From NCBI RefSeq assembly GCF_016652235.1, contig NZ_JAEPKU010000012.1, positions 1 to 56,037 on the forward strand: a stretch of DNA of 56,037 nucleotides, given 5' to 3'. Positions 6,616-29,090 of this stretch are shown piece by piece (the first letter of the stretch is position 1; the number at the start of each line of letters is the position of its first letter). The notes under the pieces are model-generated. The model did no database searches. It was not told the origin of the DNA and worked only from the letters and a program-made list of their open reading frames with translations. Source of the stretch: Dysgonomonas sp. Marseille-P4677. Its GTDB lineage: Bacteria; Bacteroidota; Bacteroidia; Bacteroidales; Dysgonomonadaceae. The position numbers and the translations under genes were made by a program.

Positions 6616-8148
6616 ATGGGAAAAAGCCTTGACATCGAATCTATATATAATATCTTATTCAAAGGTAAAGAATTTGTTGTAAGTCAAGAATCTATTTATG
6701 TTGTAAAAAAAAACTACGACTTTTTAAAAGAATTTTCTAAAGATAAAATCATTTACGGTATCAACACCGGTTTTGGTCCTATGGCTCAATATCGTGTTGA
6801 TGATGCTTTTCTTAATAATTTACAATATAATATTATCCGGAGCCATTCTACCGGAGCGGGTAAACCTCTGAATGAGCTTTATGTAAAATCGGCCATGATA
6901 GTTCGCCTAAACAATTTGCTACAAGGTAAATCCGGTGTTCATCCGGAACTAATTAGGCTTTTATCTGATTTTATAAATAAAGGAATCTGCCCTTCCGTGC
7001 CCGAACATGGTAGTGTCGGAGCCAGCGGAGATTTAGTCCAACTAGCCCATATAGCACTCACTCTGATAGGAGAAGGTGAAGTCTTTTATAAAGGAAAGCT
7101 AAGAAATACTTCCGAAGTATTACGGGAAAACAATCTGACTCCTATTTCGATGCACATTCGCGAAGGCCTTTCTGTGACCAATGGCACGTCGGTGATGACA
7201 GGTATCGGCTTAATCAATCTTATTTATGCCAAAAGGCTTTTACATTGGGCTATTGTAGCATCAGTAATGGTCAATGAAATAGCTTCTTCGTATGACGATT
7301 TTATGTCAAAAGAACTCAATACTGCCAAGCATCATAAAGGACAAAACGAGATAGCCTCAATAATGCGTAATTGGAGTAAGGACAGTTCTTGTCTACTGAA
7401 ACGCGAAAATTACCTATACAATAAAGAAAATAAAGACACTATACTTAAACATAAAGTACAGCCTTACTATTCGCTGCGTTGCGTACCACAGATACTGGGT
7501 CCAATATACGATACTTTGATATACATCGAAGATATTTTGACAGATGAAATCAACTCAGCATGTGATAACCCCATAGTAGACCATGAAAGTGAAAATGTAT
7601 ACCATGGTGGAAACTTTCATGGAGACTATATCTCTTTTGAAATGGATAAACTGAAAATTGCTATAACTAAGCTGACAATGCTTTCGGAAAGACAACTTAA
7701 TTACCTGTTTCACGATCGTATAAATGAAATACTACCTCCATTTGTAAATATGGGAGTATTAGGTCTGAATTATGGTTTGCAGGCTTCACAGTTTACAGCA
7801 ACATCTACCACAGCCGAAAGCCAGACTCTGTCTTACCCGATGTACGTACATAGCATTCCAAACAACAACGATAATCAGGATATTGTAAGTATGGGAACCA
7901 ACTCTGCATTACTTGCTAAAACTGTTATTGATAATGGCTATCAGGTCATGGCAATTCTATTTATGGCAATAGCGCAAGCTATCGACATTTTAGACATACA
8001 AGATAATTTATCACCCAATACAAAAAATATCTATACCGAAATCAGAAATATTTTTCCTAAATTCGTTGAAGATACTCCTAAGTATAAGGATATAGCAAAC
8101 CTAACTGATTATTTAACTAACAAAGAGATAGAAAAAACCTTATTATGA
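6616..8148 (+). CDS. Tyrosine ammonia-lyase (aromatic amino acid lyase, MIO enzyme)
   Basis: A protein of 510 residues, the usual length of a bacterial histidine or tyrosine ammonia-lyase. Ala136-Ser137-Gly138 in GSVGASGDL forms the MIO electrophile. Tyr in YGINTGFGP and the NNDNQDIVSMG stretch are also family landmarks. Substrate-selectivity positions are Ser76-His77, the pair seen in histidine lyases. The overall text nevertheless closely resembles the Flavobacterium johnsoniae tyrosine ammonia-lyase as I remember it (GFGPMAQYR, LQYNIIRSHS, ERQLNYL). That enzyme makes 4-coumarate for flexirubin. No hut genes are nearby and pigment genes follow, so I call it a tyrosine lyase feeding the aryl starter. 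Its stop overlaps the next start by 4 bp. Confidence 0.88.
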   Translation: MGKSLDIESIYNILFKGKEFVVSQESIYVVKKNYDFLKEFSKDKIIYGINTGFGPMAQYRVDDAFLNNLQYNIIRSHSTGAGKPLNELYVKSAMIVRLNNLLQGKSGVHPELIRLLSDFINKGICPSVPEHGSVGASGDLVQLAHIALTLIGEGEVFYKGKLRNTSEVLRENNLTPISMHIREGLSVTNGTSVMTGIGLINLIYAKRLLHWAIVASVMVNEIASSYDDFMSKELNTAKHHKGQNEIASIMRNWSKDSSCLLKRENYLYNKENKDTILKHKVQPYYSLRCVPQILGPIYDTLIYIEDILTDEINSACDNPIVDHESENVYHGGNFHGDYISFEMDKLKIAITKLTMLSERQLNYLFHDRINEILPPFVNMGVLGLNYGLQASQFTATSTTAESQTLSYPMYVHSIPNNNDNQDIVSMGTNSALLAKTVIDNGYQVMAILFMAIAQAIDILDIQDNLSPNTKNIYTEIRNIFPKFVEDTPKYKDIANLTDYLTNKEIEKTLL

Positions 8149-8873
8149 AATATGCACTGGTAACCGGAGCTAGTAAAGGAATAGGTCGTGCCATTAGCCT
8201 AAAGCTGGCCGAAATGGGATATTACATCCTTATCAATTATAATGCAAGCTACGATGATGCTATAAAGACGCTGGAACTGGTAAAAGAAGTTGGCTCTGAT
8301 GGAGAACTCTTGAAATTCGATGTATCAAACAGTAATGAAGTGAAACAGGCTTTAGATACTTGGACTACGCAGCATAAAAACGAGTACATCGAAGTGTTGG
8401 TTAACAATGCCGGTATCAATAAAGACAATCTGATGATCTGGATGCCAGAAGAAGACTGGAGCAGTGTCTTAAATATAAGTTTAAACGGTTTTTTCCATGT
8501 AACACAGTATATGTTGAAAAATATGCTTGTAAAGCGATTTGGCCGAATTATAAATATTGTATCTTTGTCCGGCATTAAAGGGATGAAAGGGCAAACCAAT
8601 TATTCTGCAGCAAAAGGAGGTCTCATTGCAGCAACTAAGGCCCTTGCAGCCGAAGTTGGTCCAAGAAACGTAACAGTAAATGCTGTAGCTCCGGGATTCA
8701 TTGAAACAGACATGACTAAAGATCTTCCTGAAAAGGAATTGAAAAATATGATCCCTGTCGGGCGTTTTGGTACAGCAGAAGAGGTTGCATCTTTAGTAGG
8801 ATTTCTTGCATCCAAAGAAGCTTCATACATTACAGGCGAAGTAATTTCTATTAATGGCGGTATATACACCTGA
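8145..8873 (+). CDS. 3-oxoacyl-ACP reductase (FabG-like, aryl-polyene ketoreductase)
   Basis: A 242-residue short-chain dehydrogenase. The NADP-binding TGASKGIGRAI lies at residues 6-16, NNAGI at about 87-91, and the catalytic Tyr153 and Lys157 in NYSAAKGG after a Ser in VSLSG. GRFGTAEEVA and YITGEVISINGG close the fold as in FabG. It should reduce the beta-keto group after each condensation on the carrier protein (the ApeQ role in characterised aryl-polyene systems). ATG overlaps the lyase stop in an ATGA junction. Confidence 0.93.
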   Translation: MKYALVTGASKGIGRAISLKLAEMGYYILINYNASYDDAIKTLELVKEVGSDGELLKFDVSNSNEVKQALDTWTTQHKNEYIEVLVNNAGINKDNLMIWMPEEDWSSVLNISLNGFFHVTQYMLKNMLVKRFGRIINIVSLSGIKGMKGQTNYSAAKGGLIAATKALAAEVGPRNVTVNAVAPGFIETDMTKDLPEKELKNMIPVGRFGTAEEVASLVGFLASKEASYITGEVISINGGIYT

Positions 8874-8893
8874 AGATACTATTTAAAAGCATA

Positions 8894-10117
8894 ATGAAGA
8901 GAGTTGTTATTACAGGGATGGGAATTTATTCCTGCATCGGGAAAAACCTTGATGAGGTTAAAAATTCACTATATCATGGCAAGTCCGGCATTGACATTGA
9001 TTCTGAAAGAATCGATTTCGGTTTTTTGTCTCCTTTAACAGGTATATTGAAAAGACCGGATATGAAAAAGTTACTCGATAGAAAAAAACGTAATTTTCTG
9101 GCCGAACAAGGAGAATATGCTTATGTGGCAACTCTTGAAGCATTCCAAAATGCAAAAATTGATGAGTCCTTTCTCGAAGCTAATGAAGTAGGCATACTCT
9201 ATGGAAACGACAGTAGCGCACTACCGGTTATTGAGGCTGCTGATATTATTCGAAATAAAAAAAATACAGTACTAGTAGGTTCAGGATCAATATTTCAGTC
9301 GATGAATTCGACCGTAACAATGAATCTTTCTGTTATTTTTAAACTCAAAGGAATCAACTTTACGATATCAGGTGCATGTGCAAGCGGCTCTCACACTATT
9401 GGGCTGGCATATTTCCTTATAAAAAATGGACTACAGGACTGCATTCTCTGTGGAGGAGCGCAAGAAGTTAATCCTTATGCTGTAGGAAGTTTTGATGGTT
9501 TAGGTACATTTTCAAAACGTATAGATGAACCAACTAAAGCCTCTCGTCCATTCGACAAAAATCGAGATGGATTAGTTCCGAGTGGAGGTGCAGCCAGTTT
9601 AGTTGTAGAAAGCTATGAATCTGCAATAAAACGTGGAGCACCTATATTGGCTGAAGTTATAGGATATGGTTTCTCTTCGAATGGAGATCATATTTCCACA
9701 CCAAATATAGACGGTCCGGTACGCTCACTTGAAATGTGCATAAAAGACGCTCGTATAAAACCCGAAGAAATACAATATATCAACGCTCATGCCACGTCAA
9801 CTCCTATAGGAGACATGAATGAGGCTAAAGCTATACATAATGTGTTTGGAAACCACAAACCGTTTGTGGCATCTACAAAATCGATGACCGGACACGAAAT
9901 GTGGATGGCCGGAGCAAGTGAAGCTATTTATTCGATACTTATGATGAATAACAATTTCATAGCCCCCAACCTAAACTTTGAAGAATCCGACGAAGCATCG
10001 GCTTTGCTAAATATACCTACTAAACGTATAGATACATCATTCGATATGTTCCTATCTAACTCTTTTGGTTTTGGAGGAACAAACTCAACATTAATAATAA
10101 AAAAATTCAAAGAGTAA
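8894..10117 (+). CDS. Beta-ketoacyl-ACP synthase (FabF-like KS, intact triad)
   Basis: A 407-residue KAS II type condensing enzyme. Catalytic residues are Cys162 (SGACASG), His299 (NAHATST) and His334 (MTGHEM), so it should be active in decarboxylative condensation. PFDKNRDGLVPSGG and SNSFGFGGTN are also typical. It follows FabG by 20 bp and precedes a carrier protein by 10 bp. In the aryl-polyene pathway such an enzyme either loads or extends the aryl starter; in known systems ApeR and ApeO do this. Which step this copy performs is not decided by the sequence. Confidence 0.92.
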   Translation: MKRVVITGMGIYSCIGKNLDEVKNSLYHGKSGIDIDSERIDFGFLSPLTGILKRPDMKKLLDRKKRNFLAEQGEYAYVATLEAFQNAKIDESFLEANEVGILYGNDSSALPVIEAADIIRNKKNTVLVGSGSIFQSMNSTVTMNLSVIFKLKGINFTISGACASGSHTIGLAYFLIKNGLQDCILCGGAQEVNPYAVGSFDGLGTFSKRIDEPTKASRPFDKNRDGLVPSGGAASLVVESYESAIKRGAPILAEVIGYGFSSNGDHISTPNIDGPVRSLEMCIKDARIKPEEIQYINAHATSTPIGDMNEAKAIHNVFGNHKPFVASTKSMTGHEMWMAGASEAIYSILMMNNNFIAPNLNFEESDEASALLNIPTKRIDTSFDMFLSNSFGFGGTNSTLIIKKFKE

Positions 10118-10127
10118 TTAGCCTTTA

Positions 10128-10400
10128 ATGGAAATGACAAACGAAGAGATAATAGAAAAAATCAGAGAGACTCTGTCCGAAGAATTCGAAGTGGATATTG
10201 AAACAATACAACCTAGCGCTCCACTGATAGAAACGTTAGAAATGGACAGTCTCGATTTTGTGGATATGGTTGTACTTATAGAGCAAAATTTTGGGTTCAC
10301 CGTAAGTGGAAATGATTTTGTAAATATAAAAACCTTTCAGGACTTCTATGATTTTATCATAGACCATCTGAACAAGCCAAATGACGAAATGGAAGGGTAA
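10128..10400 (+). CDS. Acyl carrier protein (first of two)
   Basis: A 90-residue acidic helical protein. Ser41 in MDSLDFVDMV is the phosphopantetheine attachment site. The preceding APLIETLEM and the following IEQNFGFTVSGNDF fit the ACP fold. It may start at 10128 or at the ATG at 10134. It carries the growing polyene or the aryl starter. Its 3' end overlaps the next gene by 20 bp, suggesting translational coupling. Confidence 0.92.
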   Translation: MEMTNEEIIEKIRETLSEEFEVDIETIQPSAPLIETLEMDSLDFVDMVVLIEQNFGFTVSGNDFVNIKTFQDFYDFIIDHLNKPNDEMEG

Positions 10401-11268
10401 ATCCAGAGGTGGAGCATTCGGATACCTGTTCTTTATTTTCTTAATAAAGAAAATTGGAATAAGAGCTGCTTATATATTTTTAGGTACGATTGTCTCATAC
10501 TTCATCCTATTTGCACCTAAAGCAACAAAAAGCATTTGGAATTATTCTCGCAAAACACTAAACCTAAACGTAATACATTCTATAAAAATGCTTTTCCTCA
10601 ACTATTATCGGTTGGGACAAACACTTATAGATAAAGTAGCTGTTGGAAACGGAATGAAAGACAAATACAATTTCCGTTTCGAAAATTACGACAAATTTCT
10701 AGATATACTTAATGCCGATACCGGAGCCATAATAATCGGTGCTCATATCGGAAACTGGGAAATTGGAACTCCTTTTTTCGATGAATACGGTAAAAAGATT
10801 AATATAGTACTGTATGATGCAGAATATCAAAGAATAAAAGACGTTCTACAGCAAAATACGGTTTCGGCAGATTTTAAAATTATTTCGGTGAATAATAGCG
10901 ACCTTAACCATGTCTTTGCTATTAAAGAAGCCTTAGATAATAAAGAATATATTTGTTTTCAAGGCGACCGATATGTAAATGAAGAAAGATGTCTTAAAAC
11001 TACATTTATGGGGAAAGAAGCAAATTTTCCTTTAGGACCGTTTTTATTGGCAGCCAAGATGAAAGCTCCTGTTGTATTCTACTTTGCCATGCGCGAGCGA
11101 AAAAAAACATACAGATTTCATTTTATACAAGCTACATCTTATAGAAAAGAAGACAATATTAGATCGGAACAACAACTTTTGAACCAATATGTCTCAGCTG
11201 TAGAAAGCGTTATTTGTAAATATCCCGAACAATGGTTTAATTATTATAAATTCTGGAACGAAAAATGA
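10381..11268 (+). CDS. LpxL/HtrB-like lysophospholipid acyltransferase
   Basis: A 295-residue membrane-associated acyltransferase. A hydrophobic N-terminal segment (GYLFFIFLIKKIG and IFLGTIVSYFILFAP, about residues 13-50) is followed by the acyltransferase motif HIGNWE at about residue 122, FQGDRY at about 199, and a C-terminal YPEQWFNYYKFW. LpxL-type enzymes move an acyl chain from ACP to a glycolipid. Here the donor is probably the aryl polyene on one of the adjacent ACPs, matching ApeD-like proteins in known clusters. It begins inside the end of the ACP gene. Confidence 0.85.
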   Translation: MTKWKGKSRGGAFGYLFFIFLIKKIGIRAAYIFLGTIVSYFILFAPKATKSIWNYSRKTLNLNVIHSIKMLFLNYYRLGQTLIDKVAVGNGMKDKYNFRFENYDKFLDILNADTGAIIIGAHIGNWEIGTPFFDEYGKKINIVLYDAEYQRIKDVLQQNTVSADFKIISVNNSDLNHVFAIKEALDNKEYICFQGDRYVNEERCLKTTFMGKEANFPLGPFLLAAKMKAPVVFYFAMRERKKTYRFHFIQATSYRKEDNIRSEQQLLNQYVSAVESVICKYPEQWFNYYKFWNEK

Positions 11269-11327
11269 AATCTCAGTAAAATACCGATTTTTCCTAAAAT
11301 TATAACTCTACTAAATATACACCTGTT

Positions 11328-12413
11328 ATGAATCTATTCCCCGCCTTACATAAAAGATACTCCGAAGAACAATATTCGGCATCCGAAGCTCAACGGATTG
11401 CCCAAGAAATAGCTTTTGGACCTATTGTATTTCAGGTATCACGACTTATGGTTAAATTTGGAATATTTGAACTATTATCAAATCACCGGGAAGGATTAAC
11501 TATTGAGGAAATAGGCAACGAGAAGAAATTATCGAAGTATGCTATTCAAGTATTGTTGGAGTCTTCATTATCTATAGGAACAGTACTGACCTCTAATGAC
11601 CGTTACACTCTATCTAAAATAGGCTGGTTTCTACTGAATGATGACATGGCACGTGTAAATATGAATTTTAATCATGATGTAAATTATCTTGGACTCTTTA
11701 ATCTGGAAGAATCTCTATTAAACGAGAAACCGGAAGGGTTAAAAGTATTTGGTGAATGGCCTACTATATACGAAGGATTATCTCAGCTACCTGAAGAGGT
11801 ACAGAAAAGTTGGTTCGATTTCGATCATTTTTATTCCGATAATTCGTTTCCTCAAGCACTGGATATCGTTTTTAGAAATAAACCTCGCACCCTGCTTGAT
11901 GTTGGCGGAAATACAGGTAGGTGGGCAACAAAGTGTGTAGAATATGATATTGATGTAAACGTCACCATCATGGATCTGCCACAACAACTAGAACTAATGA
12001 AAAAGCACATAGACGGATTGGAAGGTGCGAATCGTATACATGGTTATGGATGTAATCTTTTAAACAAAGATGTTCCTTTCCCTAAAGGATTCGATGTTAT
12101 ATGGATGAGCCAATTTTTGGATTGTTTTTCGGAAACGGAAGTAACAAGTATACTTACTCGTGCAGCCGAATCTATGACAAATTCTTCATTCCTTTATATC
12201 ATGGAAACATTCTGGAATCGTCAAAAATTTGAGACTGCAGCCTACTGTCTGACTCAAACGAGTCTATATTTTACAGCAATGGCAAATGGTAATAGCAAGA
12301 TGTACCATTCTGACGATATGGAACGTTGTGTGAAAGACGCCGGACTTGAAGTAGTAGAAATACACGATGGATTGGGACTAGGCCATAGTATTATGATATG
12401 TAAACGAATATGA
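11328..12413 (+). CDS. SAM-dependent methyltransferase (O-methyltransferase family 2-like)
   Basis: A 361-residue protein. The N-terminal 110 residues look like a winged-helix dimerisation domain (RLMVKFGIFELLSNHREGLTIEEIG). The Rossmann domain starts at LLDVGGNTGRW (about residue 188) and includes TIMDLPQQ and GFDVIWMSQFLDCF. The usual HVLHDW general-base block of plant-type O-methyltransferases is replaced by WMSQFLDCF, so the chemistry could differ from O-methylation. Methylation of the aryl ring is known for aryl polyenes and flexirubins. A 59-bp gap precedes it, the largest inside the first part of the operon; the next gene overlaps by 4 bp. Confidence 0.85.
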   Translation: MNLFPALHKRYSEEQYSASEAQRIAQEIAFGPIVFQVSRLMVKFGIFELLSNHREGLTIEEIGNEKKLSKYAIQVLLESSLSIGTVLTSNDRYTLSKIGWFLLNDDMARVNMNFNHDVNYLGLFNLEESLLNEKPEGLKVFGEWPTIYEGLSQLPEEVQKSWFDFDHFYSDNSFPQALDIVFRNKPRTLLDVGGNTGRWATKCVEYDIDVNVTIMDLPQQLELMKKHIDGLEGANRIHGYGCNLLNKDVPFPKGFDVIWMSQFLDCFSETEVTSILTRAAESMTNSSFLYIMETFWNRQKFETAAYCLTQTSLYFTAMANGNSKMYHSDDMERCVKDAGLEVVEIHDGLGLGHSIMICKRI

Positions 12414-12844
12414 AAAATCAAGCAATTATAGAAGGAAATAGTATATTGGATTTGATTCCTCAACGTCCGCCAATTGTAATGGTAGATAAGTTTTATGGGA
12501 TTGAAGAGAATACTTCATATACCGGATTGACTATTACTGTCGATAATATATTTGTAGAAAATAATAAATTAAAAGAGCCCGGTATCATAGAACATATCGC
12601 ACAATCGGCAGCTTCTCGTATAGGATATATCTGCCAGCAAGAGAATATTGATGTACCGTTGGGTTTTATCGGATCGGTAGACAAACTTACGATACATTCC
12701 TTACCCTTAGTTGAAGATAATCTACATACTGAAATAAAAATAATACAAGAAGTTGCTGAAATTACATTGATAAGTGCATCTGTGAGATCCGGAAACAGCC
12801 TTATTGCTGAATGCCGGATGAAAATATTTTTGAAAAAAGAATGA
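12410..12844 (+). CDS. 3-hydroxyacyl-ACP dehydratase, hotdog fold (ApeP-like)
   Basis: A 144-residue hotdog protein. It opens with LDLIPQRPPIVMVDKF, the typical beginning of FabZ/ApeP-like dehydratases, and carries the helix with PGIIEHIAQSAASRIGY, whose acidic residue is the expected catalytic one. It would dehydrate the 3-hydroxyacyl chain after FabG action, giving the conjugated double bonds. It overlaps both neighbours by 4 bp (ATGA at each end). Confidence 0.85.
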   Translation: MKNQAIIEGNSILDLIPQRPPIVMVDKFYGIEENTSYTGLTITVDNIFVENNKLKEPGIIEHIAQSAASRIGYICQQENIDVPLGFIGSVDKLTIHSLPLVEDNLHTEIKIIQEVAEITLISASVRSGNSLIAECRMKIFLKKE

Positions 12845-13284
12845 AAAAGCATAGATACGGATTAAAACAGCCATCACTAACAAACAGAACTTCGCTAAAA
12901 GTACGCTTTAGCGAAGTGGACTCTATGAAAATTGTCTGGCATGGTCAATATATAAAATATTTCGAAGATGGCAGGGAATCGTTCGGAAAACAATATGGAA
13001 TAGGCTATTGGGATATCTATAACAGTGGCTTTACAGCTCCGATTGTCGATCTTGCTTGCCAATACAAACAGTCGCTGACTTTTGGAGAAGAGGCTATAGT
13101 GGAAACACATTACATTGCTTCTGATGCGGCAAAAATCATATTCGAATATACGATTTACAAAAGTGATGGAATAACAGTTGTTGCTACCGGAAGCACCATA
13201 CAAGTATTCTTAAATTCGGAAAATGAACTGGAACTTACTAATCCGGAATTCTATGTGGAATGGAAAAAGAAATGGGACATTTAA
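12841..13284 (+). CDS. Acyl-CoA thioesterase, 4HBT-type hotdog (ApeK-like)
   Basis: A 147-residue protein from the ATG at 12841 (MKKHRYGLKQ), which forms an ATGA overlap with the previous stop. A longer form from 12811 would overlap further and lacks support. VRFSEVDSMKIVWHGQYIKYFE carries the Asp and the W-x-G-x-Y-x-x-Y-F-E pattern of 4-hydroxybenzoyl-CoA thioesterases and YbgC-like enzymes. It could release the finished chain, transfer it, or edit stalled intermediates. Confidence 0.83.
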   Translation: MKKHRYGLKQPSLTNRTSLKVRFSEVDSMKIVWHGQYIKYFEDGRESFGKQYGIGYWDIYNSGFTAPIVDLACQYKQSLTFGEEAIVETHYIASDAAKIIFEYTIYKSDGITVVATGSTIQVFLNSENELELTNPEFYVEWKKKWDI

Positions 13285-19595: not shown

Positions 19596-20787
19596 ATACA
19601 TCGATATGATGACATGGCAGGAAAAATTAAACAGCCTTAGCATCGTTGTTATTATACCTACATATAATAATGACAAGACTCTTCTGTCTGTAATTGAGGG
19701 CGTAAAACGATACAGTAAACACATTATAGTGATCAATGACGGTTCTACTGATACTACAGCACAAATACTGGCTACAACTACAGATATACAAACTATCACT
19801 CATCCTGTAAACAAAGGAAAAGGATACGCATTGAAAACAGGCCTGCTTGCTGCAAAAAAACTCGGATTCAGATATGCCATAACCATAGATTCGGATGGAC
19901 AACACTATCCTTCCGATATCCCGGCTTTTGTCGATGAAATAGAAAAGCTGCCCGATACTATGCTTGTAGGGGCAAGAAATCTTACGGCCGACAATATGCC
20001 CGGTAAAAATACTTTTGCAAATAAATTTTCTAACTTTTGGTTTCGTTTAGAAACAGGTATAAAACTAAATGATACCCAGTCGGGATACCGTCTATATCCG
20101 CTTCATCGTATCGGAGAAATGAAATATTGTACGGCTAAATACGAATTTGAATTGGAGATGATTGTATTTCTGGCATGGAAAGGCGTAGATGTAAAAAATA
20201 TTCCTGTAAATGTATATTATCCACCGGAGGGAGAACGCGTGTCGCATTTTCGACCGTTAAGAGATTTTACACGTATTAGTATACTTAATACAATACTTGT
20301 AATCATCACATTCTTATGGATACTTCCAATGAAGTTTTTCAAAAAACTAACGTGGACTAATATTCGTGCTTTCATCGATAAAGAAATTCTAAAATCAAAG
20401 GATACAAACAAAACAATTATATTATCAATCATGCTAGGTGTCTTTATGGGAATTGTTCCTATTTGGGGGTATCAGATGATTGTGACTGTTTTCTTAGCAC
20501 ATTTCCTGAAGCTGAATAAAGTAATATCATTGGTTGCATCCAACATCAGTATACCGCCAATGATGCCTTTTCTGTTATATGGTAGTTATGCAACAGGTTG
20601 TTTTCTGACAAACAGCCCCGTAACATTTGACTTTATCGACGTATCACTTGATAGTATGAAAACCGTTTTATTCCAATACCTCACAGGAAGTATCATATTT
20701 GCACTACTTTGCAGTATTATTGTGGGTATTATTTCAGGCTGTCTTTTATTGATATTTCGCAAAGAGAGGCAAGCAATAGATATTTAA
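19588..20787 (+). CDS. Family 2 glycosyltransferase fused to a DUF2062 membrane domain
   Basis: A 399-residue protein from the ATG at 19588; the open frame extends 6 bases further to a TTG but the ATG is preferred. Residues 1-240 form a GT-A fold: VVIIPTYNN, VINDGSTDTT, and the DSDGQH metal-binding motif. Residues about 275-395 form a DUF2062 segment with several membrane helices (IILSIMLGVFMGIVPIWGYQ and MMPFLLYGSYATGCF). Dolichol-phosphate-mannose-synthase-like enzymes of this type pass a sugar to a lipid or a carrier. It probably makes the sugar head group or polyprenyl sugar to which the pigment is linked. It overlaps the previous gene by 8 bp. Confidence 0.88.
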   Translation: MSEYIDMMTWQEKLNSLSIVVIIPTYNNDKTLLSVIEGVKRYSKHIIVINDGSTDTTAQILATTTDIQTITHPVNKGKGYALKTGLLAAKKLGFRYAITIDSDGQHYPSDIPAFVDEIEKLPDTMLVGARNLTADNMPGKNTFANKFSNFWFRLETGIKLNDTQSGYRLYPLHRIGEMKYCTAKYEFELEMIVFLAWKGVDVKNIPVNVYYPPEGERVSHFRPLRDFTRISILNTILVIITFLWILPMKFFKKLTWTNIRAFIDKEILKSKDTNKTIILSIMLGVFMGIVPIWGYQMIVTVFLAHFLKLNKVISLVASNISIPPMMPFLLYGSYATGCFLTNSPVTFDFIDVSLDSMKTVLFQYLTGSIIFALLCSIIVGIISGCLLLIFRKERQAIDI

Positions 20788-20798
20788 CTTAAATATAA

Positions 20799-23700
20799 AT
20801 GAGTAGTTTTTTTGTAAATCTATATACATATTTTACACGACATAAAATAATTCTTTATTTGTCACTGATAGCAAGCATAGCTATTATGGGATATTTTGCT
20901 CTGCAACTCAAATTTGAAGAGAATATAACCCAATTCTTTCCAGATACAAAAAACGAAAAAAATCTGAATACAGTCTTTGATAATCTGCGCATCAAAGATA
21001 AGATTATTGTTATATTCTCTTCTTCTGACAATAAGGAAGAGACAGACAGCAATCTATTAATAGAAAGTGCTACACTATTTAGTGATAGCTTGCTGGCTAA
21101 AACAAAAGAAACACATGTCAATAACATACTTATCCGTATAGATGACAGTCTGAAAATAGAAATGCAGAACTTTGTTTACAATAATCTGCCTATTTTCTTA
21201 TCCGACAGTGATTATTTGCGAATAGATTCGCTTTTTACTAAAGAAAAGGTGGCGGAGGTTATGCAACGAAACTACTCTAATCTGCTTTCCCCTGCCGGAA
21301 GTTTTCTCAAAGAATATATTATGAAAGACCCCTTCAGCCTTGGGGGAAATGCACTGAAAAGGTTGCAGGACTTTCAACTGGATAGTAACTTTGAACAACA
21401 AGACGGCTACATCTTTTCTAAGGACGGTTCCATGCTATTCATATTCATCACGCCTACTCATAGTATGGGAAGCACCGGCAAAAATGATAAGTTAATCACT
21501 GCCATCGAAGATGAAATTGCAGCAATCAATAAGGCTTATCCGTCAATAAAAGCTGAATATTATGGAGGACCTTCCGTAGGAGTATATAATGCTCGTCAGA
21601 TAAAAGAAGATTCGGTGATGACCATCACTATATCTTTAGCAATCATAATCACTTTTATCCTATTAGTTTTCAAGCAAAAACGAACAATCTTTCAAATTAT
21701 CGCCCCAAGTATTTTTGGTGGATTATTCGCTTTGTTTATAATTTCGCTGATAAAGGGTAGTATTTCGTCCATTGCTGTAGGTGCCGGCTCGGTAGTTATG
21801 GGTATTGCTTTGAGCTATTCTATACATATGGTTGTCCATCAAACCCATGTATCGTCTGTGATACAACTGATAAAAGAACTCACCTACCCTCTTACTGTCG
21901 GTAGCTTCACCACTATAGGAGCATTTTTAGGACTACTTTTCACCAGTTCGAGTTTATTACGAGACTTCGGTTTGTTTGCGTCTATGGCGCTTATTGGAAC
22001 AATTATTTTTTGTTTGATATACCTTCCTCATTTTCTGAATGGTAAAGTGCATCAAAAAAGGAGCCTATTATTACGACTTATAGAGCGTTTCAATTCTTAT
22101 CGTTTCGATAAAAATAAATGGCTGGTAGGCGGGATTCTGACTCTCACCGCCATTTGTATATTCACCTCGCGCAATGTGGGTTTCGATGCGGACATGATGC
22201 ACATGAATTATGAGCCTGAACATCTGAAAGCAACAGAAAATAAAATATCTACGTTGATAGATAACGATAAGAAAACGATCATTTTTGCGAGTGTAGGTAA
22301 AGACATAAACGAAGCAACAAGAAATTATAATAAGACTAACAAGACATTATCTGATCTCGAATCGCAAGGTTTGGTTAGAGCCCATGCCTCTGCCTATTAT
22401 TTTCTTATACCTAAGGATATACAAAAGGAACGTTTAGAGAAATGGAATAATTATTGGACATCTGATAAAAAAGAATATTTAAAAAGAAATGTGCAAAGCG
22501 AAGCCTCGGCGCTCCGCTTTCGTCCCGAAGCGTTCAACCCTTTTTATAAATGGATTGATTCTGATTTTAATTTACATGATGACTATATAGAAACAAACAA
22601 GCTGTTAGGCGACTGGCAAAACTCTACACCCGGTCTTACTATGTTAATATCGCAGGTACAACTCGATGACAAAAACAAAGATGAAGTATACCAGTATTTC
22701 GATAATAGTAATGAGGTAGTCATATTAGACCGTTCATACTTTACGAACAAATGGGTTTCAGCTATTAACGATGATTTTTACCTGATACTGTTTATCTCTT
22801 CATTCCTCATATTTTTCACCCTGCTCATTTCGTACGGACGCATAGAACTTACTCTGATAAGCTTCTCTCCTATGTTTATCAGTTGGATTATCATTATCGG
22901 AATAATGGGTATTACAGGTATGGAGTTCAATATAATTAATATTATCTTATCCACATTTATATTCGGCATAGGCGACGATTTTAGCATATTCATCATGGAT
23001 GGCTTACAAAATAAATACAGGACAAATAAGCCAGTACTGAACGGACACAAAACAGCCATTTTCTTTTCAGCCTTTACCATTATTGTTGGTATAGGAGCGC
23101 TTATATTTGCACAACATCCAGCACTCCAATCTATTTCGGTAATGTCTATATTAGGAATGATCGTTGTAGTTCTGGTTTCATATACTATACCACCTATACT
23201 TTTTCGTATATTCATTTCGTCGCAAACAACTAAAGGCTTACCTCCATACACACTAGCTTCAATACTTATAACAGCATTTATTTATGGACTTTTCCTCGTA
23301 GGATGTCTAAGTCTGCGCCTGATAATGTTAATCTTATACCTTATACCGATAAAAAAGGTCAAAAAAAGACAATTCATATGCTTTCTGCTAATGCTCACCT
23401 GCCGCTCGATTTGCTTTGCAGGATTTGTATTGAAGAAGAAAAGGATAAATATAAGTAAAGAAACATTTAAGAAACCAGCAATTATTATTGCCAACCACCA
23501 GTCTTTCCTCGATATCCTTCTATTACTTTCTCTTAGTCCGAAACTAGTGATGGTAACAAACAAGTGGGTATGGAAATCACCGTTTTTCGGTTCTATAATA
23601 AGGTACGCAGGCTATTTCTGTACTAGTGAAGGCTATGAAAACTCTGTTTCACACATAAAAGAACGTATAGAAGAAGGCTTTTCGGTGGTTATATTCCCTG

Positions 23701-24650
23701 AGGGAACTCGTTCGTATGACAATAAATTGAAACGTTTCCATAAAGGAGCTTTCTATCTTTCCGAAACGTTGAAAGTGGATATTATACCTGTCATATTATA
23801 TGGCACAGGAATGGTTATAGCTAAATCTCAGCCGTTTTATCTGAAACGGGGATATGTAGTTACTAAAATCCTACCACGCATTATATATCAAGATCGCTCT
23901 TTTGGCGATACATACAAAGAACGGACTAAAAAGATAGCATCTTATTTCGCTACCGAATATAAAACGGTATTAAAAGAATACGATACTGTTTCCAATCCTT
24001 ATTTTTATAATATGTTGGTTAAAAACTACATTTATAAAGGTCCTGTTGAAGAATGGTATGTACGTATAAAAGTGAAGATGGAAAGAAATTACAAATTATT
24101 TGACGAACTTATTCCTAAAAAAGGGAAGATCACCGATATAGGATGCGGATACGGAACTTTAGGATATATGCTTTCTATGCAGTCGAATGAAAGGCAGATA
24201 TTAGGTATAGACTACGATGAAGACAAAGCAAAAGTAGCACAATATGGCTATCTACACAGAGAGAATACAGAATTTATACATGCTAATGCTCTCGAGTATC
24301 CATTACCAGAAAGTGATGTATTCGTACTTAACGATATGCTGCATTATATGAGTAGCGACAAACAAGAGGATTTATTAAAAAGATGTGCAAAAAACCTTCT
24401 TCCTGATGGAATCATTATCGTGCGTGACGGAGATAAGCAAGATAAGGAAAAACAATGGCTTACAAATTTGTCAGAAATACTTTCCACTCGTATCTTTGGT
24501 TTCAATAAGACAAAGGAAAAGCTATGCTTTACATCTGCCGAGCAATTATATACAATAGCTAAAGATTGTAACATGACAGTGGAAAGCTTCAAGAATGATA
24601 AATATACTTCTAATACGATCTTTCTATTCAAGAGAAAAACAAATGAGTAA
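20799..24650 (+). CDS. Trifunctional fusion: MMPL/RND exporter, PlsC-type acyltransferase, SAM methyltransferase
   Basis: A 1283-residue protein made of three modules. Residues 1-830 are an MMPL/RND transporter with two periplasmic loops (about 35-265 and 455-640), two sets of membrane helices, and the proton-relay region FGIGDDFSIFIMD. Residues about 880-1070 are a lysophospholipid acyltransferase with His900 and Asp905 (NHQSFLD) and FPEGTRS (Glu968). Residues about 1100-1283 are a class I methyltransferase with DIGCGYG starting at Asp1113. The transporter probably moves the pigment lipid out of the inner membrane, while the cytoplasmic domains acylate and methylate. Similar triple fusions are annotated in other Bacteroidetes from memory. 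It overlaps the next gene by 8 bp. Confidence 0.92.
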   Translation: MSSFFVNLYTYFTRHKIILYLSLIASIAIMGYFALQLKFEENITQFFPDTKNEKNLNTVFDNLRIKDKIIVIFSSSDNKEETDSNLLIESATLFSDSLLAKTKETHVNNILIRIDDSLKIEMQNFVYNNLPIFLSDSDYLRIDSLFTKEKVAEVMQRNYSNLLSPAGSFLKEYIMKDPFSLGGNALKRLQDFQLDSNFEQQDGYIFSKDGSMLFIFITPTHSMGSTGKNDKLITAIEDEIAAINKAYPSIKAEYYGGPSVGVYNARQIKEDSVMTITISLAIIITFILLVFKQKRTIFQIIAPSIFGGLFALFIISLIKGSISSIAVGAGSVVMGIALSYSIHMVVHQTHVSSVIQLIKELTYPLTVGSFTTIGAFLGLLFTSSSLLRDFGLFASMALIGTIIFCLIYLPHFLNGKVHQKRSLLLRLIERFNSYRFDKNKWLVGGILTLTAICIFTSRNVGFDADMMHMNYEPEHLKATENKISTLIDNDKKTIIFASVGKDINEATRNYNKTNKTLSDLESQGLVRAHASAYYFLIPKDIQKERLEKWNNYWTSDKKEYLKRNVQSEASALRFRPEAFNPFYKWIDSDFNLHDDYIETNKLLGDWQNSTPGLTMLISQVQLDDKNKDEVYQYFDNSNEVVILDRSYFTNKWVSAINDDFYLILFISSFLIFFTLLISYGRIELTLISFSPMFISWIIIIGIMGITGMEFNIINIILSTFIFGIGDDFSIFIMDGLQNKYRTNKPVLNGHKTAIFFSAFTIIVGIGALIFAQHPALQSISVMSILGMIVVVLVSYTIPPILFRIFISSQTTKGLPPYTLASILITAFIYGLFLVGCLSLRLIMLILYLIPIKKVKKRQFICFLLMLTCRSICFAGFVLKKKRINISKETFKKPAIIIANHQSFLDILLLLSLSPKLVMVTNKWVWKSPFFGSIIRYAGYFCTSEGYENSVSHIKERIEEGFSVVIFPEGTRSYDNKLKRFHKGAFYLSETLKVDIIPVILYGTGMVIAKSQPFYLKRGYVVTKILPRIIYQDRSFGDTYKERTKKIASYFATEYKTVLKEYDTVSNPYFYNMLVKNYIYKGPVEEWYVRIKVKMERNYKLFDELIPKKGKITDIGCGYGTLGYMLSMQSNERQILGIDYDEDKAKVAQYGYLHRENTEFIHANALEYPLPESDVFVLNDMLHYMSSDKQEDLLKRCAKNLLPDGIIIVRDGDKQDKEKQWLTNLSEILSTRIFGFNKTKEKLCFTSAEQLYTIAKDCNMTVESFKNDKYTSNTIFLFKRKTNE

Positions 24651-26130
24651 ATACGATATTATCATAGCCGGAAGTGGGCTTGGCGGACTCGAATGTGCGG
24701 CAATTCTTAGTAAAGAGGGATACAATGTATGTGTCCTTGAAAAAAATGTATTGTTCGGAGGATGCTTGCAAACATATAAAAGAAAAGGGCATTTACTTGA
24801 TACCGGAATACATTATATAGGGAGCCTTGATGACGGGCAAATAATGAACCAGTATTTTAAGTACTTCGGTATAATTGATAAGTTAAAGATGAAAAGGCTC
24901 GACACCGATTCATTCGACACAATATTCTATAAGAATAAAATATATAATTATGCAGTCGGTCACGATAACTTTGCAGATACATTATCTAATTCTTTTCCAC
25001 ATGAAAGGGAAAACCTAAAATCGTATGTATCTGCACTAAAAGAAGTAGGCAGACTCATCGATATAGACACGCTCAAAAAAGGTATCATAGCACAAAACGG
25101 CATGAAGTACTTCTACGCCTCTGCTGCTAACACAATAGCTGATACTGTCAACGACGAAACGCTGAAAAATGTTCTGGCTGCAACATCTATGCTGTATGGA
25201 GGTATCGAAAACATGTCGACATTCTACCACCATGCAATGATAAATAATTCGTACATAGAAAGCCCTTATCGCTTTATGGACGGAACAATGCAAATAGCAG
25301 ACAGGCTGATAGAAGTGATCAGGACAAATGGAGGAACAGTCCTAAATAACAAAGAAATAACTCGGCTAATAGTAACAGACAATGAAGTAACTGCTGCAGA
25401 AGTTAATAATGAAGAGATTTTCGAAGCTGATCATTTTATATCGAATATTCATCCCAAACGAACGCTAGAAATATTAGATAAGAGCCGTTATATAAAAAAT
25501 GCATATATATCACGTATTAATGCTTTACCAAATTCGTTTGGTATATTCACACTCTATCTGGTAATGAAACCAAATACTTACCCCTATATCAACAGTAATT
25601 ATTATGTGCATGGGACAGATAATGTATGGTACAATCACGACTCATCTAGAAATAAAGTAAACAATGCCCTCCTTTGTTTTCAGTGTAACAATAATAGTAA
25701 TTACACTGATGTAATCTCGGTTATGTCGTGTATGTATATGTCGGAGCTGAAAGAATGGGAACATACCTCTGTTGGTAAAAGAGGCAATGATTACATCACG
25801 TTCAAGAAAGACTATTCAAATAAATTACTTGAATTCCTAAAAACAAAAGGCTTTGATTTTACTGATAAAGTAGAGTCGATGTATACAACAACACCATTAA
25901 GTTACCGCGACTATACAGGAACTCCTTATGGATCTGCATACGGAATAATTAAAGATTATAAATTTCCCGAAATAGGTTTTATATCAACTAAGACCAAGCT
26001 GAAAAACTTATACTTTACAGGTCAGAATATGAATGTACACGGAGCCTTGGGCGTAACGCTTACAGCTATGTTTACTTGCTCCGATTTTGTAGGACAAGAA
26101 TATCTAGCAAAAAAAGTTGGAAATGCATAA
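24643..26130 (+). CDS. FAD-dependent oxidoreductase, phytoene-desaturase-like (NAD(P)/FAD fold)
   Basis: A protein of 495 residues from the ATG at 24643, which sits inside the preceding stop region (ATGAGTAA). The longer frame from 24595 is not supported. The FAD dinucleotide motif IAGSGLGGLECAAIL lies at residues 8-22, with VLEKN following. A C-terminal segment NLYFTGQNMNVHGALGV matches the CrtI/amine-oxidase superfamily. No phytoene synthase is present, so carotenoid synthesis is unlikely. It may desaturate or isomerise the polyene or oxidise its end. It is a regular companion in flexirubin-type clusters, but its step is not established. Confidence 0.87.
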   Translation: MSKYDIIIAGSGLGGLECAAILSKEGYNVCVLEKNVLFGGCLQTYKRKGHLLDTGIHYIGSLDDGQIMNQYFKYFGIIDKLKMKRLDTDSFDTIFYKNKIYNYAVGHDNFADTLSNSFPHERENLKSYVSALKEVGRLIDIDTLKKGIIAQNGMKYFYASAANTIADTVNDETLKNVLAATSMLYGGIENMSTFYHHAMINNSYIESPYRFMDGTMQIADRLIEVIRTNGGTVLNNKEITRLIVTDNEVTAAEVNNEEIFEADHFISNIHPKRTLEILDKSRYIKNAYISRINALPNSFGIFTLYLVMKPNTYPYINSNYYVHGTDNVWYNHDSSRNKVNNALLCFQCNNNSNYTDVISVMSCMYMSELKEWEHTSVGKRGNDYITFKKDYSNKLLEFLKTKGFDFTDKVESMYTTTPLSYRDYTGTPYGSAYGIIKDYKFPEIGFISTKTKLKNLYFTGQNMNVHGALGVTLTAMFTCSDFVGQEYLAKKVGNA

Positions 26131-27784
26131 ATATCTGAAAAGAGTTGTTCGAATAAGCTTATATGTATTACTGGTGTTCATCCTTTCGCTGGGAGGAATT
26201 ATCGGCTACATGTACTTTTCAGCTGATATGTGTATCCCTGAAATTACGGAAAAAGTACCCGATCATAAATTAATAATAGAAGATAATTATCGACAATGGG
26301 GAGAAAATTATCTGCGGAAAAGTGAAAGCGGACTATGGGAATTAAAGGTTACAGGAAGTGATTATGAACGTGGAACTGCCATAGGTAAAATGTCTGAAGA
26401 CCTGCTCTATTATCAGGAAAAAGTATTTGTTGACCAAATAAAAGAAATTGTACCATCCGGAAGTTATCTGCGATTTCTAGGCTTCTTTACCATCCTCTAT
26501 AATCGTAATCTGGGTAAGAATGTACCAGAAGAATATAGGCGTGAAATCTATGGAGTATCGCAAGCCTGCTCCGATGAATTTGATTATATAAGCACCCCTT
26601 ACGAAAGACAACTCAATTATCATGCAGCACACGACCTCGGCCATGCTATGCAAGATTATATGTTGGTAGGATGCAGCTCCTTTGCCACGTGGGGTTCGCA
26701 AAGTACCGATTCGACACTGATAATCGGGCGTAATTTTGATTTTTATGTAGGCGATGATTTTGCAAAAAACAAAGAAGTATTATTTTACGAACCCGACAAA
26801 GGATATAAATTCGTTTCCATTGCATGGCCCGGAATGACAGGCGTATTATCGGGAATGAATGAAGAAGGATTAACAGTAACAATAAACGCAGCAAAATCTT
26901 CAATTCCCACTTCGGCAAAAACTCCTATATCCATTCTTACACGTGAGATCCTACAATATGCATCGACAATAGAAGATGCATATGAAATAGCAAAAAAGAG
27001 AGAAACCTTTGTGTCTGAATCCATCCTGATAGGTTCGGCTAAAGATAAAAAAGCCGCAATTATTGAAAAATCGCCGGATAATATAGGATTATTTACGACC
27101 TCCGAGGAACGGATTATCTGCACCAATCATTTTCAGTCGGATATCTTTGCCAACGATGAACGTAATCTGGAAAATATACGTACAACCGATAGTAATTACC
27201 GATATAAACGACTGACCGAGCTTCTCGATAAAAATAAACCTATAGATGAGAAAAAGGTAGCCTCCATACTTCGTAATACAAAAGGATTGAAAGAGAAAGA
27301 AATCGGTCTGACAAATGAAATGGCTATAAATCAGTTTATAGCGCATCATTCAGTAATATTCAAACCGGAGCAACGCATAATATGGGTATCTACCCACCCT
27401 TGGCAAATAGGAAAATATGTTGCGTACGATCTGAACAAGATCTTCAAAGGAAATCCGGATTTCAGAAAAGAAATATATTCAGATGAATATACAATAGCAG
27501 AGGACTCTTTAAGATATAATAACACGTATACCAACCTAATAGCATACAAAGATCTGACAAAGGATATAAAAATTCAGATTAAAGAAAAGTCTACAGTAAC
27601 AGAAGATATGCTAAAAATGTATGAAGCCACCAATCCCGAATATTATCATATGTATGAAATAATAGGTGATTATTATGATTCGCAAGGAGATAAGAATAAG
27701 GCTAAAATATATTGGAAAAAAGCTCTGACTAAAGAAATACCCAAAATCTCGGAAAAGGAGAGAATTTTGAAAAAGATAAAATAA
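26117..27784 (+). CDS. C45-type Ntn-hydrolase / acyltransferase with N-terminal membrane anchor
   Basis: A 555-residue protein. A membrane helix at about residues 10-35 (SLYVLLVFILSLGGIIGYMYF) anchors it toward the periplasm. Cys186 in VGCSSFATWG fits the autoprocessed Gly-Cys junction of Ntn hydrolases related to isopenicillin N acyltransferase. IIGRNFDFY and PGMTGVLSGMNEEGLTVTINA are typical of the family. The last 100 residues contain a TPR-like stretch (YHMYEIIGDYYDSQGDKNKAK). Family members form or cleave amide bonds. Here it may attach the aryl polyene to an amine or hydrolyse an amide. It may start at 26117 or at the ATG at 26123. Confidence 0.83.
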   Translation: MEMHKYLKRVVRISLYVLLVFILSLGGIIGYMYFSADMCIPEITEKVPDHKLIIEDNYRQWGENYLRKSESGLWELKVTGSDYERGTAIGKMSEDLLYYQEKVFVDQIKEIVPSGSYLRFLGFFTILYNRNLGKNVPEEYRREIYGVSQACSDEFDYISTPYERQLNYHAAHDLGHAMQDYMLVGCSSFATWGSQSTDSTLIIGRNFDFYVGDDFAKNKEVLFYEPDKGYKFVSIAWPGMTGVLSGMNEEGLTVTINAAKSSIPTSAKTPISILTREILQYASTIEDAYEIAKKRETFVSESILIGSAKDKKAAIIEKSPDNIGLFTTSEERIICTNHFQSDIFANDERNLENIRTTDSNYRYKRLTELLDKNKPIDEKKVASILRNTKGLKEKEIGLTNEMAINQFIAHHSVIFKPEQRIIWVSTHPWQIGKYVAYDLNKIFKGNPDFRKEIYSDEYTIAEDSLRYNNTYTNLIAYKDLTKDIKIQIKEKSTVTEDMLKMYEATNPEYYHMYEIIGDYYDSQGDKNKAKIYWKKALTKEIPKISEKERILKKIK

Positions 27785-27791
27785 CCGTATT

Positions 27792-29090
27792 ATGAAAAAA
27801 TACCCTGACATACAATTTCAACCGACTGACGTTATTAAAAATTTTCAGGAAGTACGACTACAAGATTCTCTTAAATATCTGCAAGAACATTCTGCTTTTT
27901 ATCAAAGAATGTTCAAAAATAATAATATCGACATAAACGAAATAAAAACGATAGAAGATTTACAGCAGCTACCGGTAACAACTAAAAATGATCTACAACA
28001 ATACAGCAAAGATTTTATCTGTGTAGACAAAACTGAAATAATAGACTATGTCACCACCTCCGGCACGCTGGGCGAACCTATTACATTCGTACTCACATCG
28101 AAAGATCTGGACAGACTCGCCTACAACGAATATTTATCTTTCACTACTGCCGGATTTACAAATAGGGACATCATACAACTAATGACAACAATAGACCGCC
28201 GTTTTATGGCCGGACTAGCATATTTTATGGGAGCACGTGAACTAGGGATGGGAGTGGCTCGTGTAGGAAACGGAATACCTGAATTACAATGGGATACGAT
28301 AGATCGAGTAGAGCCAACCTGTGGCATAGCTGTGCCTTCCTTTCTTATAAAACTAATCGAATTTGCAGAAAAGAATAATATAGATTACAATAACAGTTCA
28401 ATCAAGAAATGTCTTTGTATAGGAGAGTCTCTTCGCAAAGAGAATTTCGAACTGAACACTTTGGGAAAACGTATTCAGGAAAAATGGAATTCTCTACAAT
28501 TGTACTCTACATATGCTTCCACTGAGATGCAATCCTCATTTACGGAATGTGATAGTTTTTGTGGAGGACATTTACAACCTGAACTTATTATTGTTGAATT
28601 TCTCGATGATAATGACATGCCTGTTTCGGAGGGTGAAGCAGGAGAAGTCACTATCACAACACTTGGTGTGGAAGGAATGCCCTTACTCCGATTCAAAACA
28701 GGTGATGTTTGTTATCATTATAATAAGCCTTGCACATGCGGAAGAAATACGATACGACTTAGCAGCGTGCTTGGTCGTAGAGGACAGATGATAAAATATA
28801 AAGGAACGACACTTTATCCACCGGCATTATTTGATATACTCGACAATGTGCCCCATATAAAAAACTATGTAGTGGAAGTTTTTACAAACGATTTAGGAAC
28901 AGATGAAATACTAGTTCGCATAGGTTGTGATGAAAACAGAAGTGAAGCTTTTGTAAAAGAAATAAAAGACATGTTCAGGTCTAAAGTCAGAGTAGCACCT
29001 AATATTAGCTTCGAATCGCCTGAATATATAGCACAAATACAAACTCCGCCAATGAGTAGAAAGGCCATTAAATTTATAGATTTACGCTAA
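27792..29090 (+). CDS. PaaK-like AMP-forming aryl-CoA/aryl-ACP ligase
   Basis: A 432-residue ligase of the phenylacetate-CoA ligase branch. The ATP-binding loop is VTTSGTLGEPI at about residues 77-87. YSTYASTEMQ at about 236-245 and RFKTGDVC at about 300 follow, with a small C-terminal domain from about 330 (GRRGQMIKYKGTTLYPPALFD). It probably activates 4-coumarate from the first gene of the cluster and loads it to CoA or ACP. This gene is the last of the operon, 8 bp after the Ntn-hydrolase. The substrate is inferred from the cluster. Confidence 0.87.
   Translation: MKKYPDIQFQPTDVIKNFQEVRLQDSLKYLQEHSAFYQRMFKNNNIDINEIKTIEDLQQLPVTTKNDLQQYSKDFICVDKTEIIDYVTTSGTLGEPITFVLTSKDLDRLAYNEYLSFTTAGFTNRDIIQLMTTIDRRFMAGLAYFMGARELGMGVARVGNGIPELQWDTIDRVEPTCGIAVPSFLIKLIEFAEKNNIDYNNSSIKKCLCIGESLRKENFELNTLGKRIQEKWNSLQLYSTYASTEMQSSFTECDSFCGGHLQPELIIVEFLDDNDMPVSEGEAGEVTITTLGVEGMPLLRFKTGDVCYHYNKPCTCGRNTIRLSSVLGRRGQMIKYKGTTLYPPALFDILDNVPHIKNYVVEVFTNDLGTDEILVRIGCDENRSEAFVKEIKDMFRSKVRVAPNISFESPEYIAQIQTPPMSRKAIKFIDLR

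Follow-up and report, generated by a model that had tools for sequence, protein, structure and literature searches.

Does a flexirubin-type gene cluster make flexirubin when the genome that carries it has no dialkylresorcinol (DAR) genes? This question is raised by a stretch of 56,037 nucleotides from Dysgonomonas sp. Marseille-P4677 (the window), in which positions 6616-29090 hold 21 open reading frames (ORFs) of the plus strand that form a flx aryl-polyene cluster. An earlier note, made from the letters of the window, had described here a complete aryl-polyene/flexirubin-type pigment operon of 21 genes without the DAR genes. The ORF listing confirmed the 21 genes on one strand, and the identity of the cluster is supported by six ORFs (FlxA, FlxB, FlxJ, LolA2, LolB2 and FlxY) which pass the cut-offs of NCBIfam flexirubin equivalogs, the FlxJ model being titled just FlxJ family methyltransferase. 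By its profile score the FlxA product is a predicted tyrosine ammonia-lyase. The FlxY ligase, the FlxB reductase, LolA2 and LolB2 are all recognised, and the set of type II ketosynthases (KS), acyl carrier proteins (ACPs) and dehydratases is present, with weak matches for the dehydratases. Flexirubins carry a DAR ester (PMC3992019). Our analysis indicates that the window probably contains a functional flx cluster without the DAR module, which would make a resorcinol-free aryl-polyene lipid of the outer membrane.

The dialkylresorcinol genes in the genome

In Chitinophaga pinensis the dar genes are located apart from flx, and the first two enzyme steps of the pathway have been shown there (PMC3992019). 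Absence of dar from an operon therefore proves nothing by itself, and it is the genome-wide search that carries the argument. The genome of the window has 4.73 Mb in 278 contigs and is 99.95% complete. DarA was searched with an alignment of six rows from adjacent DarA-DarB pairs of genomes of other orders, whose members were called DarA by their position beside DarB. No match to it was found at E <= 0.001 in the whole genome. DarH had no match in the whole genome, and the best DarB match scored 35 bits, against a cut-off of 550. The genome contains just two KASIII genes, both FabH-sized and both at or below 35 bits to the DarB model. Thus DarA, DarB and DarH, the three proteins by which a flexirubin cluster proper was to be recognised, were all missing from the genome; the use of DarH for this purpose is our own and not a published practice. 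The earlier note had stated that DarA and DarB are absent from the operon, and neither turned up elsewhere.

DarH can be placed from a cluster of another order (G125), in which DarB passes NF053539 with 670 bits and the third gene passes NF053550, the model of DarH, a BtrH-related acyltransferase. This DarH is followed by an ABC ATPase and then by an ORF that, by eye, is permease-like. In the DAR cluster of Azoarcus, genes for an ABC ATPase and permease are listed together with a BtrH-like gene, under other letters (PMC3949708).

An assembly gap was considered as the cause of the missing dar genes. Two single-contig, flx-bearing genomes of the same family (G058 and G022) are also without DarA, DarB and DarH, which makes such a gap unlikely. 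A split layout as in C. pinensis, with dar hidden elsewhere in the genome, is unlikely too, as none of DarA, DarB and DarH was found by the genome-wide searches.

Predicted product and likeness to known pigment clusters

It could be possible to read a pathway from the gene content. FlxA would deaminate tyrosine to 4-coumarate, and FlxY would activate the 4-coumarate. The ACPs, three KS with a Cys-less partner, FlxB and the two dehydratases would extend it to an aryl polyene; no dedicated enoyl reductase was recognised in the cluster. FlxJ probably methylates the ring, and the LpxL-type and PlsC-type acyltransferases may join the polyene to a putative lipid anchor. The GT2 glycosyltransferase and the deacetylase could build or trim a sugar part, and the RND exporter, LolA2 and LolB2 would carry the product to the outer membrane. 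With DarA, DarB and DarH missing, the pathway would end at a resorcinol-free aryl-polyene lipid. In the simplest reading the resorcinol cassette, where it is present, would add a second half to this lipid. Here we infer the chain length, the methylated ring, the anchor and the functions of genes 13, 19, 20 and 22, as well as the expression of the operon.

A close comparison is with the ape stretch of Escherichia coli CFT073, whose product is an aryl polyene that has no resorcinol. Each of the 21 proteins, as a profile built from 6-10 aligned rows, was compared with the 18 ape-stretch proteins with filters off, and 15 of the 21 matched ape proteins below E 0.001. The ape letters were assigned from the gene order, and where no publication supports a letter we assume it to be correct. 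Likeness was found for the ketoreductase (KR), the three KS, the two ACPs, FlxJ (to ApeB), the thioesterase, the two dehydratases (one weakly), LolA, GT2, the LpxL-type acyltransferase and the exporter with its PlsC domain; the Cys-less KS matches weakly, best to ApeR. Homologues of KS, KR, ACP, methyltransferase, thioesterase, GT2-acyltransferase, LolA and RND exporter, which together characterise an ape-type cluster, thus all occur here. Like the flx cluster, the ape stretch has no annotated resorcinol gene. The two differ at the start, as the flx pathway would begin from tyrosine through the lyase and the flx ligase has no match to ApeH. The structure of an aryl-polyene lipid has reportedly been determined from Xenorhabdus.

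Several of the ape letters are borne out by PMC8253772. It reports that E. coli apeD, apeJ and apeR mutants accumulate late intermediates that likely are without the final lipid anchor, and that the aryl polyene protects against oxidative stress. The anchor was not identified by its authors, who considered that it could be lipid A or a lipoprotein (PMC8253772). This bears on an alternative in which the ester partner of the polyene is not a small lipid but, for instance, the lipopolysaccharide core, a capsule sugar or a lipoprotein. The GT2, the polysaccharide deacetylase, the C45 acyltransferase and the lipoprotein-like gene of the cluster would suit it, but acyltransferases of the LpxL and PlsC types, together with an ApeM-like exporter, agree with a lipid, with lipid A still compatible. 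We regard this alternative as rather unlikely. The lipid- or sugar-linked product distinct from flexirubin that the earlier note had proposed is partly supported, by the ape comparison.

With the clusters of C. pinensis and Flavobacterium johnsoniae the comparison is of gene kinds and not of sequences directly. The flx cluster of C. pinensis (flxA-flxY, Cpin_1853-1877) has, as here, a lyase, a ligase, a reductase, several KS, LolA, a deacetylase, a glycosyltransferase and an exporter, and like the cluster here it does not enclose dar genes (PMC3992019). However, C. pinensis has darA/darB elsewhere in its genome and F. johnsoniae has them inside its flexirubin cluster (PMC3992019), whereas none were found here.

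The cluster could also be a decaying remnant that was left after the loss of dar and yields little or no product. All genome counts in this study are of samples, and the searches for DarA, DarH and FlxJ covered chosen, mostly flx-bearing genomes. Among 13 genomes sampled from the genus just 3 have FlxA over its cut-off, and a DarB fragment persists in a genome of the same family (G050), both of which would agree with decay. However, all 21 frames are open, and the same 21 genes stand in the same order in G058, G039, G133 and G050, G133 belonging to a different family. Against two flx-bearing genomes of the genus (G058 and G039), the nonsynonymous difference (pN) was 0.025-0.178, the synonymous difference (pS) 0.64-0.85 and pN/pS 0.03-0.25 for all 21 genes, ratios which are rough because synonymous sites are near saturation. 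All 21 genes are under purifying selection. Decay was rejected on the open frames and the low pN/pS, and a remnant is thus an unlikely state of this cluster.

Some results weigh against a resorcinol-free lipid, the roughness of pN/pS being one of them. Six of the 21 proteins (FlxA, the deacetylase, LolB2, the FAD enzyme, the C45 protein and FlxY) are without an ape match, and no match to ApeG, ApeN, ApeA or ApeH was found below E 0.001 among the 18 ape proteins. The transport proteins ApeG and ApeN and the ligase ApeH, which also belong to an ape-type cluster, thus have no match here; LolB2 and FlxY may be stand-ins for these ape proteins. Genes for sugar and lipid handling also occur in dar-bearing clusters and so are by themselves no proof of a lipid anchor. 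The DarA of G125, so called from its position and length, had no NCBIfam match at 1e-8. There is also a second KASIII gene, a 338-codon open frame on contig C234 (L002:1186-2160). This gene is one ground for supposing that a true flexirubin is made, with the second KASIII or an unrecognised enzyme supplying the resorcinol and gene 20 or another acyltransferase joining it. A DarB-type protein (510 bits) in a genome of the family that has no FlxA (G012), and the separate dar genes of C. pinensis (PMC3992019), would also allow it. But the KASIII of C234 scores no more than 35 bits to DarB, against mostly 500-690 bits for full-length DarB matches in flx-bearing genomes of other orders, and by eye it lies between TetR-like and AraC-like regulator ORFs. 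Neither DarA, searched at E <= 0.001, nor DarH was found in the genome. A true flexirubin is therefore very improbable here, and a resorcinol-free lipid is the preferred product.

Gene content and organisation of the locus

The features are listed in Table 1. Gaps between neighbouring ORFs are at most 59 bases, ORF starts being set at the first start codon in each frame. The many ATGA overlaps that had been noted are true as to overlap, found at 15 of the 20 junctions, but just four are of the 4-base ATGA type; the ATGA count over the whole window was uninformative for the cluster. Every one of the 21 ORFs has at least a weak match in Pfam or NCBIfam. Family matches agree with the lyase, ligase, two ACPs, ketoreductase, thioesterase, acyltransferases, LolA, lipoprotein and exporter of the earlier note. 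That list was right in what it held and left out FlxJ, the polysaccharide deacetylase, GT2, the CrtD-like FAD oxidoreductase and the C45 acyltransferase. Both dehydratases could be identified, with weak matches: gene 7 has 31 bits to FabZ, and gene 16 has 27 bits to FabZ and, at 22 bits, stays below the Pfam FabA cut-off of 23.

Table 1. Features of the flx cluster and its flanks (coordinates are those of the window)
No.	Feature	Coordinates	Strand	Evidence
	Promoter-like site TTTG-N20-TAnnTTTG, Bacteroidota-type	6555..6586	+	29 nt before flxA start; position suggestive
1	FlxA, predicted tyrosine ammonia-lyase, ASG at residues 136-138	6616..8148	+	NF053541 875 bits, cut-off 700
2	FlxB, SDR ketoreductase	8145..8873	+	NF053542 411 bits, cut-off 340; ApeQ 253 bits
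3	Ketosynthase, Cys162/His299/His334	8894..10117	+	PF00109/PF02801; ApeR 291 bits
4	Acyl carrier protein, Ser41 in DSL	10128..10400	+	PF00550; ApeF 60 bits
5	LpxL-type acyltransferase	10381..11268	+	PF03279; ApeJ 111 bits
6	FlxJ-family methyltransferase, ApeB-like	11328..12413	+	NF053543 632 bits, cut-off 560; ApeB 454 bits
7	FabZ-like dehydratase	12410..12844	+	NF000582 31 bits, below cut-off; no Pfam match; ApeP 13 bits, weak
8	4HBT thioesterase	12811..13284	+	PF13279; ApeK 96 bits
9	Ketosynthase, Cys151/His278/His312, with fused ~200 residues	13260..15005	+	ApeO 189 bits
10	Acyl carrier protein	14993..15253	+	NF006617 92 bits, cut-off 70; ApeE 95 bits
11	Ketosynthase, Cys157/His287/His322	15253..16443	+	ApeO 240 bits
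12	Ketosynthase-like, without active-site Cys and His	16440..17390	+	PF13723; hhalign to gene 11 98%; ApeR 23 bits, ApeC 15 bits
13	Polysaccharide deacetylase	17384..18076	+	PF01522
14	LolA2	18073..18702	+	NF053544 231 bits, cut-off 125; ApeL 37 bits
15	LolB2, lipoprotein-like, lipobox-like N-terminus (by eye)	18677..19225	+	NF053540 75 bits, cut-off 60
16	ApeI-like dehydratase	19203..19595	+	PF07977/PF22818 below cut-off; ApeI 39 bits
17	GT2 glycosyltransferase with DUF2062	19582..20787	+	PF00535, PF09835; ApeJ 144 bits
18	RND/MMPL exporter fused to PlsC-type acyltransferase and methyltransferase	20799..24650	+	ApeM 121-126 bits, ApeD 55-70 bits
19	CrtD-like FAD oxidoreductase	24595..26130	+	PF01593; TIGR02733 124 bits, below cut-off
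20	C45/AAT-family acyltransferase-hydrolase	26117..27784	+	NF040521 238 bits, cut-off 85
21	FlxY, acyl-CoA ligase	27792..29090	+	NF053551 723 bits, cut-off 520
22	Candidate cluster member, 192 aa, signal-peptide-like start (by eye)	29157..29735	+	Positional

The ASG triad of such lyases, the serine motif of ACPs and the Cys-His-His residues of KS are functional sites of these proteins. The serine motif is present in both ACPs (genes 4 and 10), and Cys-His-His is found in three KS and missing in the fourth, as had been claimed. For the KS of both gene 9 and gene 11 an alignment was obtained to chain 6qsp_A of a solved KS, presumably ApeO of an aryl-polyene system. In five clusters from other orders (G125, G254, G174, G081, G090) the ~200-residue extension of gene 9 stands alone as a protein; this C-terminal part is weakly KS-like (hhalign to gene 12, E 3.5e-4, probability 37%). 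Gene 12 is a probable chain-length-factor partner; phmmer against solved structures gave nothing for it at 0.001.

Beyond the 21 ORFs, the ORF at 29157-29735 is a possible 22nd gene. Pfam gave nothing for it at E 0.01, and NCBIfam gave no match above a cut-off. In tblastn it had homologues in 11 of 197 loci, and as nearly all of these loci are flx neighbourhoods the evidence for membership is purely positional. Several of the homologues lie within flx clusters or at their edges, between genes 7 and 8 (G373, G090), between 14 and 16 (G393), between 21 and 1 (G515) or after 21 (G133, G058, G039), and no match was found in the fetched clusters of G050 from the same family, G125, G254 and G081. 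Its pN/pS of 0.28-0.29 is above that of the 21 genes. The stretch GKARGFGLRNFW in this ORF is common to L036. A structure prediction from two sequences had a mean pLDDT of 42 and was not used.

A second promoter-like site of the type TTTG-N20-TAnnTTTG, which we take to be the Bacteroidota promoter consensus, lies 31 nt before this ORF. The motif occurs three times in the window. Shuffles have a mean of 1.46 and reach this number in 17 of 100 cases, and the count is thus not above chance. A scan for sigma-70-type promoters upstream of flxA gave 7 sites, against 5.6 in shuffles. Upstream of the cluster (2543-5571) are genes of the FecR type, for a sigma factor and of GH43; downstream (32302-36381) is a hybrid two-component protein of 1359 aa, followed by large ORFs up to about 53600.

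Distribution and evolution of the dar genes

In the family of the window FlxA was over its cut-off in 7 of 61 sampled genomes, and none of the seven has DarA, DarH or an intact DarB. It was observed that G050, without DarA and DarH, carries a 71-residue DarB-like fragment (G050:C29:315869-316084), which is likely a trace of dar loss. The full-length DarB-type protein of G012 (G012:C29:15047-16171) is in a genome with no matches to FlxA, DarA or DarH.

For the class and the order, DarB was counted solely at E <= 1e-60. Among 198 genomes of the class, FlxA is present in 37, of which 34 exceed the cut-off and three score 683-686 bits; DarB accompanies it in 35. The two exceptions are the genome of the window (G000) and G211, which is 78% complete and has DarH. 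Five further genomes of the class sample have DarB without FlxA. Outside the order of the window, with G000 and G133 left out, DarB was found in 34 of 35 flx-bearing genomes. Within the order (295 genomes), FlxA was found in 59 (58 over cut-off, one partial), of which 31 have DarB and 28 are without it. Weaker DarB matches in G283, G355, G452, G479, G497 and G535 were counted as no DarB, and five weak DarA matches (20-29 bits; G260, G360, G437, G481, G524) as no DarA. A DarH fragment of 20 residues in G439 was not counted, and G537, whose FlxA is partial, enters the counts of 59 and 65 but not the tree described below. Thus flx without dar is ordinary within the order of the window and unusual in the sample outside it. 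Rarity of the dar-less state is not supported by these counts, and such clusters are already in print (PMC3949708, PMC5932025).

It should be noted here that DarB alone is no proof of a DAR pathway. G133 has an unlinked DarB-type protein of 499 bits without DarA or DarH, and was taken as DarB-positive in the class and order counts and as dar-less in the tree. The control Bacteroides ihuae has FlxA and FlxJ over cut-off, DarB below cut-off and no DarH. DarH without DarA or DarB was observed in seven flx-bearing genomes (G283, G295, G355, G452, G497, G515, G535). Five of them (G283, G355, G452, G497, G535) have a divergent full-length KASIII with 81-97 bits to DarB, perhaps for a different second half of the pigment. 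Relatives of FlxA, at least 80 among the matches listed, are mostly titled as Bacteroidales genera or Bacteroidales bacterium, and a few of those listed are titled just Bacteroidetes, Bacteroidia or bacterium.

Published surveys give a varied picture. Many bacteria have polyene clusters, some with DAR genes and some without them (PMC3949708), and in Bacteroidetes the presence of DAR proteins is said to turn aryl polyenes into flexirubin-type pigments (PMC5932025). Flexirubin clusters are recorded in five of six Bacteroidetes classes (PMC9248904), and in Flavobacteriaceae they diversify by genus (PMC10734526). In the mouse gut, aryl-polyene clusters belong chiefly to one Muribaculaceae genus and resorcinol clusters chiefly to Bacteroidaceae (PMC9007364). 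Resorcinol-free polyene clusters are thus already known, and the cluster here is a good, complete and conserved example. No publication was found that describes how DarA, DarB and DarH are distributed together in the order, which is weak evidence as subscription literature was mostly outside the search. In the available text of PMC3949708 and PMC5932025 the pattern at the level of the order and the link between DarH and DarA are not described. This study adds a pattern of two parts, a deep flx group most of whose members are without dar, and a joint change of DarA and DarH.

Both came from a tree of FlxA, FlxB and the KS of gene 3 with 70 rows, made by a quick method, in which 22 of 67 inner branches have low support; the dar states of six rows from other orders were set from cluster maps. 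One strongly supported branch splits the tree into two groups. Group I has 29 rows, all of the order of the window and including the window, and DarA is present in 6. Group II has 41 rows from this and other orders: 29 with DarA, 7 with DarH but no DarA, and 5 that have neither. By a fewest-changes count the state of DarA changed at least 15 times, and a single clade for the dar-less state was rejected (approximately unbiased test, p 0.0003; the group was chosen after the tree had been seen). In 10 independent pairs, with G125, G206, G090 and G081 left out as they were outside the DarH search, DarA and DarH differed the same way in a mean of 6.8, the opposite way in 0 and showed no difference in 3.2 (median p 0.016). 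DarA and DarH move together.

In three genomes (G337, G354, G438) the order is genes 1-5, DarA, DarB, 7, DarH, 8, and by this placement the dar module looks like an insertable cassette. Of 29 mapped DarA-bearing genomes, 5 have DarA-DarB in the slot that lies between gene 5 and gene 7 (G337, G354, G409, G438, G525). Of 27 mapped genomes in which DarA, DarB and DarH are all missing, 12 have FlxJ there (G000, G022, G039, G047, G050, G058, G277, G290, G340, G362, G470, G481), as do G133 and G515; many of the maps end at 20 kb or at contig ends. FlxJ is over its 560-bit cut-off in 21 of 65 flx-bearing genomes of the order, 19 of which are without DarA, and in none of 35 outside the order. An exchange of FlxJ and dar at one slot was rejected, as the median p of independent pairs was 1 and G310 and G493 carry FlxJ in the slot together with dar. 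Shared ancestry can explain the link of FlxJ with the dar-less state.

These patterns suggest a wider model, which is tentative and to which we give somewhat less than an even chance. In group I, flx would be a stand-alone pathway to an aryl-polyene lipid, with DarA, DarB, DarH and the ABC exporter pair as a cassette that was gained or lost many times, and DarH, rather than the C45 protein, would make the ester between polyene and resorcinol. The comparison also makes DarH a testable candidate for the enzyme that joins the two.

Flexirubin serves as a chemotaxonomic marker, and gut Bacteroides aryl-polyene clusters are read as flexirubin by similarity; for instance, a cluster of Bacteroides xylanisolvens is compared with the flexirubin of C. 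pinensis (PMC12940132). By known biochemistry no flexirubin would be expected from a genome in which DarA, DarB and DarH are all missing, and flexirubin labels may thus overstate the product. If the lipid-anchored reading is true, these bacteria would have an outer-membrane polyene of the E. coli type. If the wider model is true as well, resorcinol-free aryl-polyene lipids derived from tyrosine would be common in the order, and tests for flexirubin would miss them.

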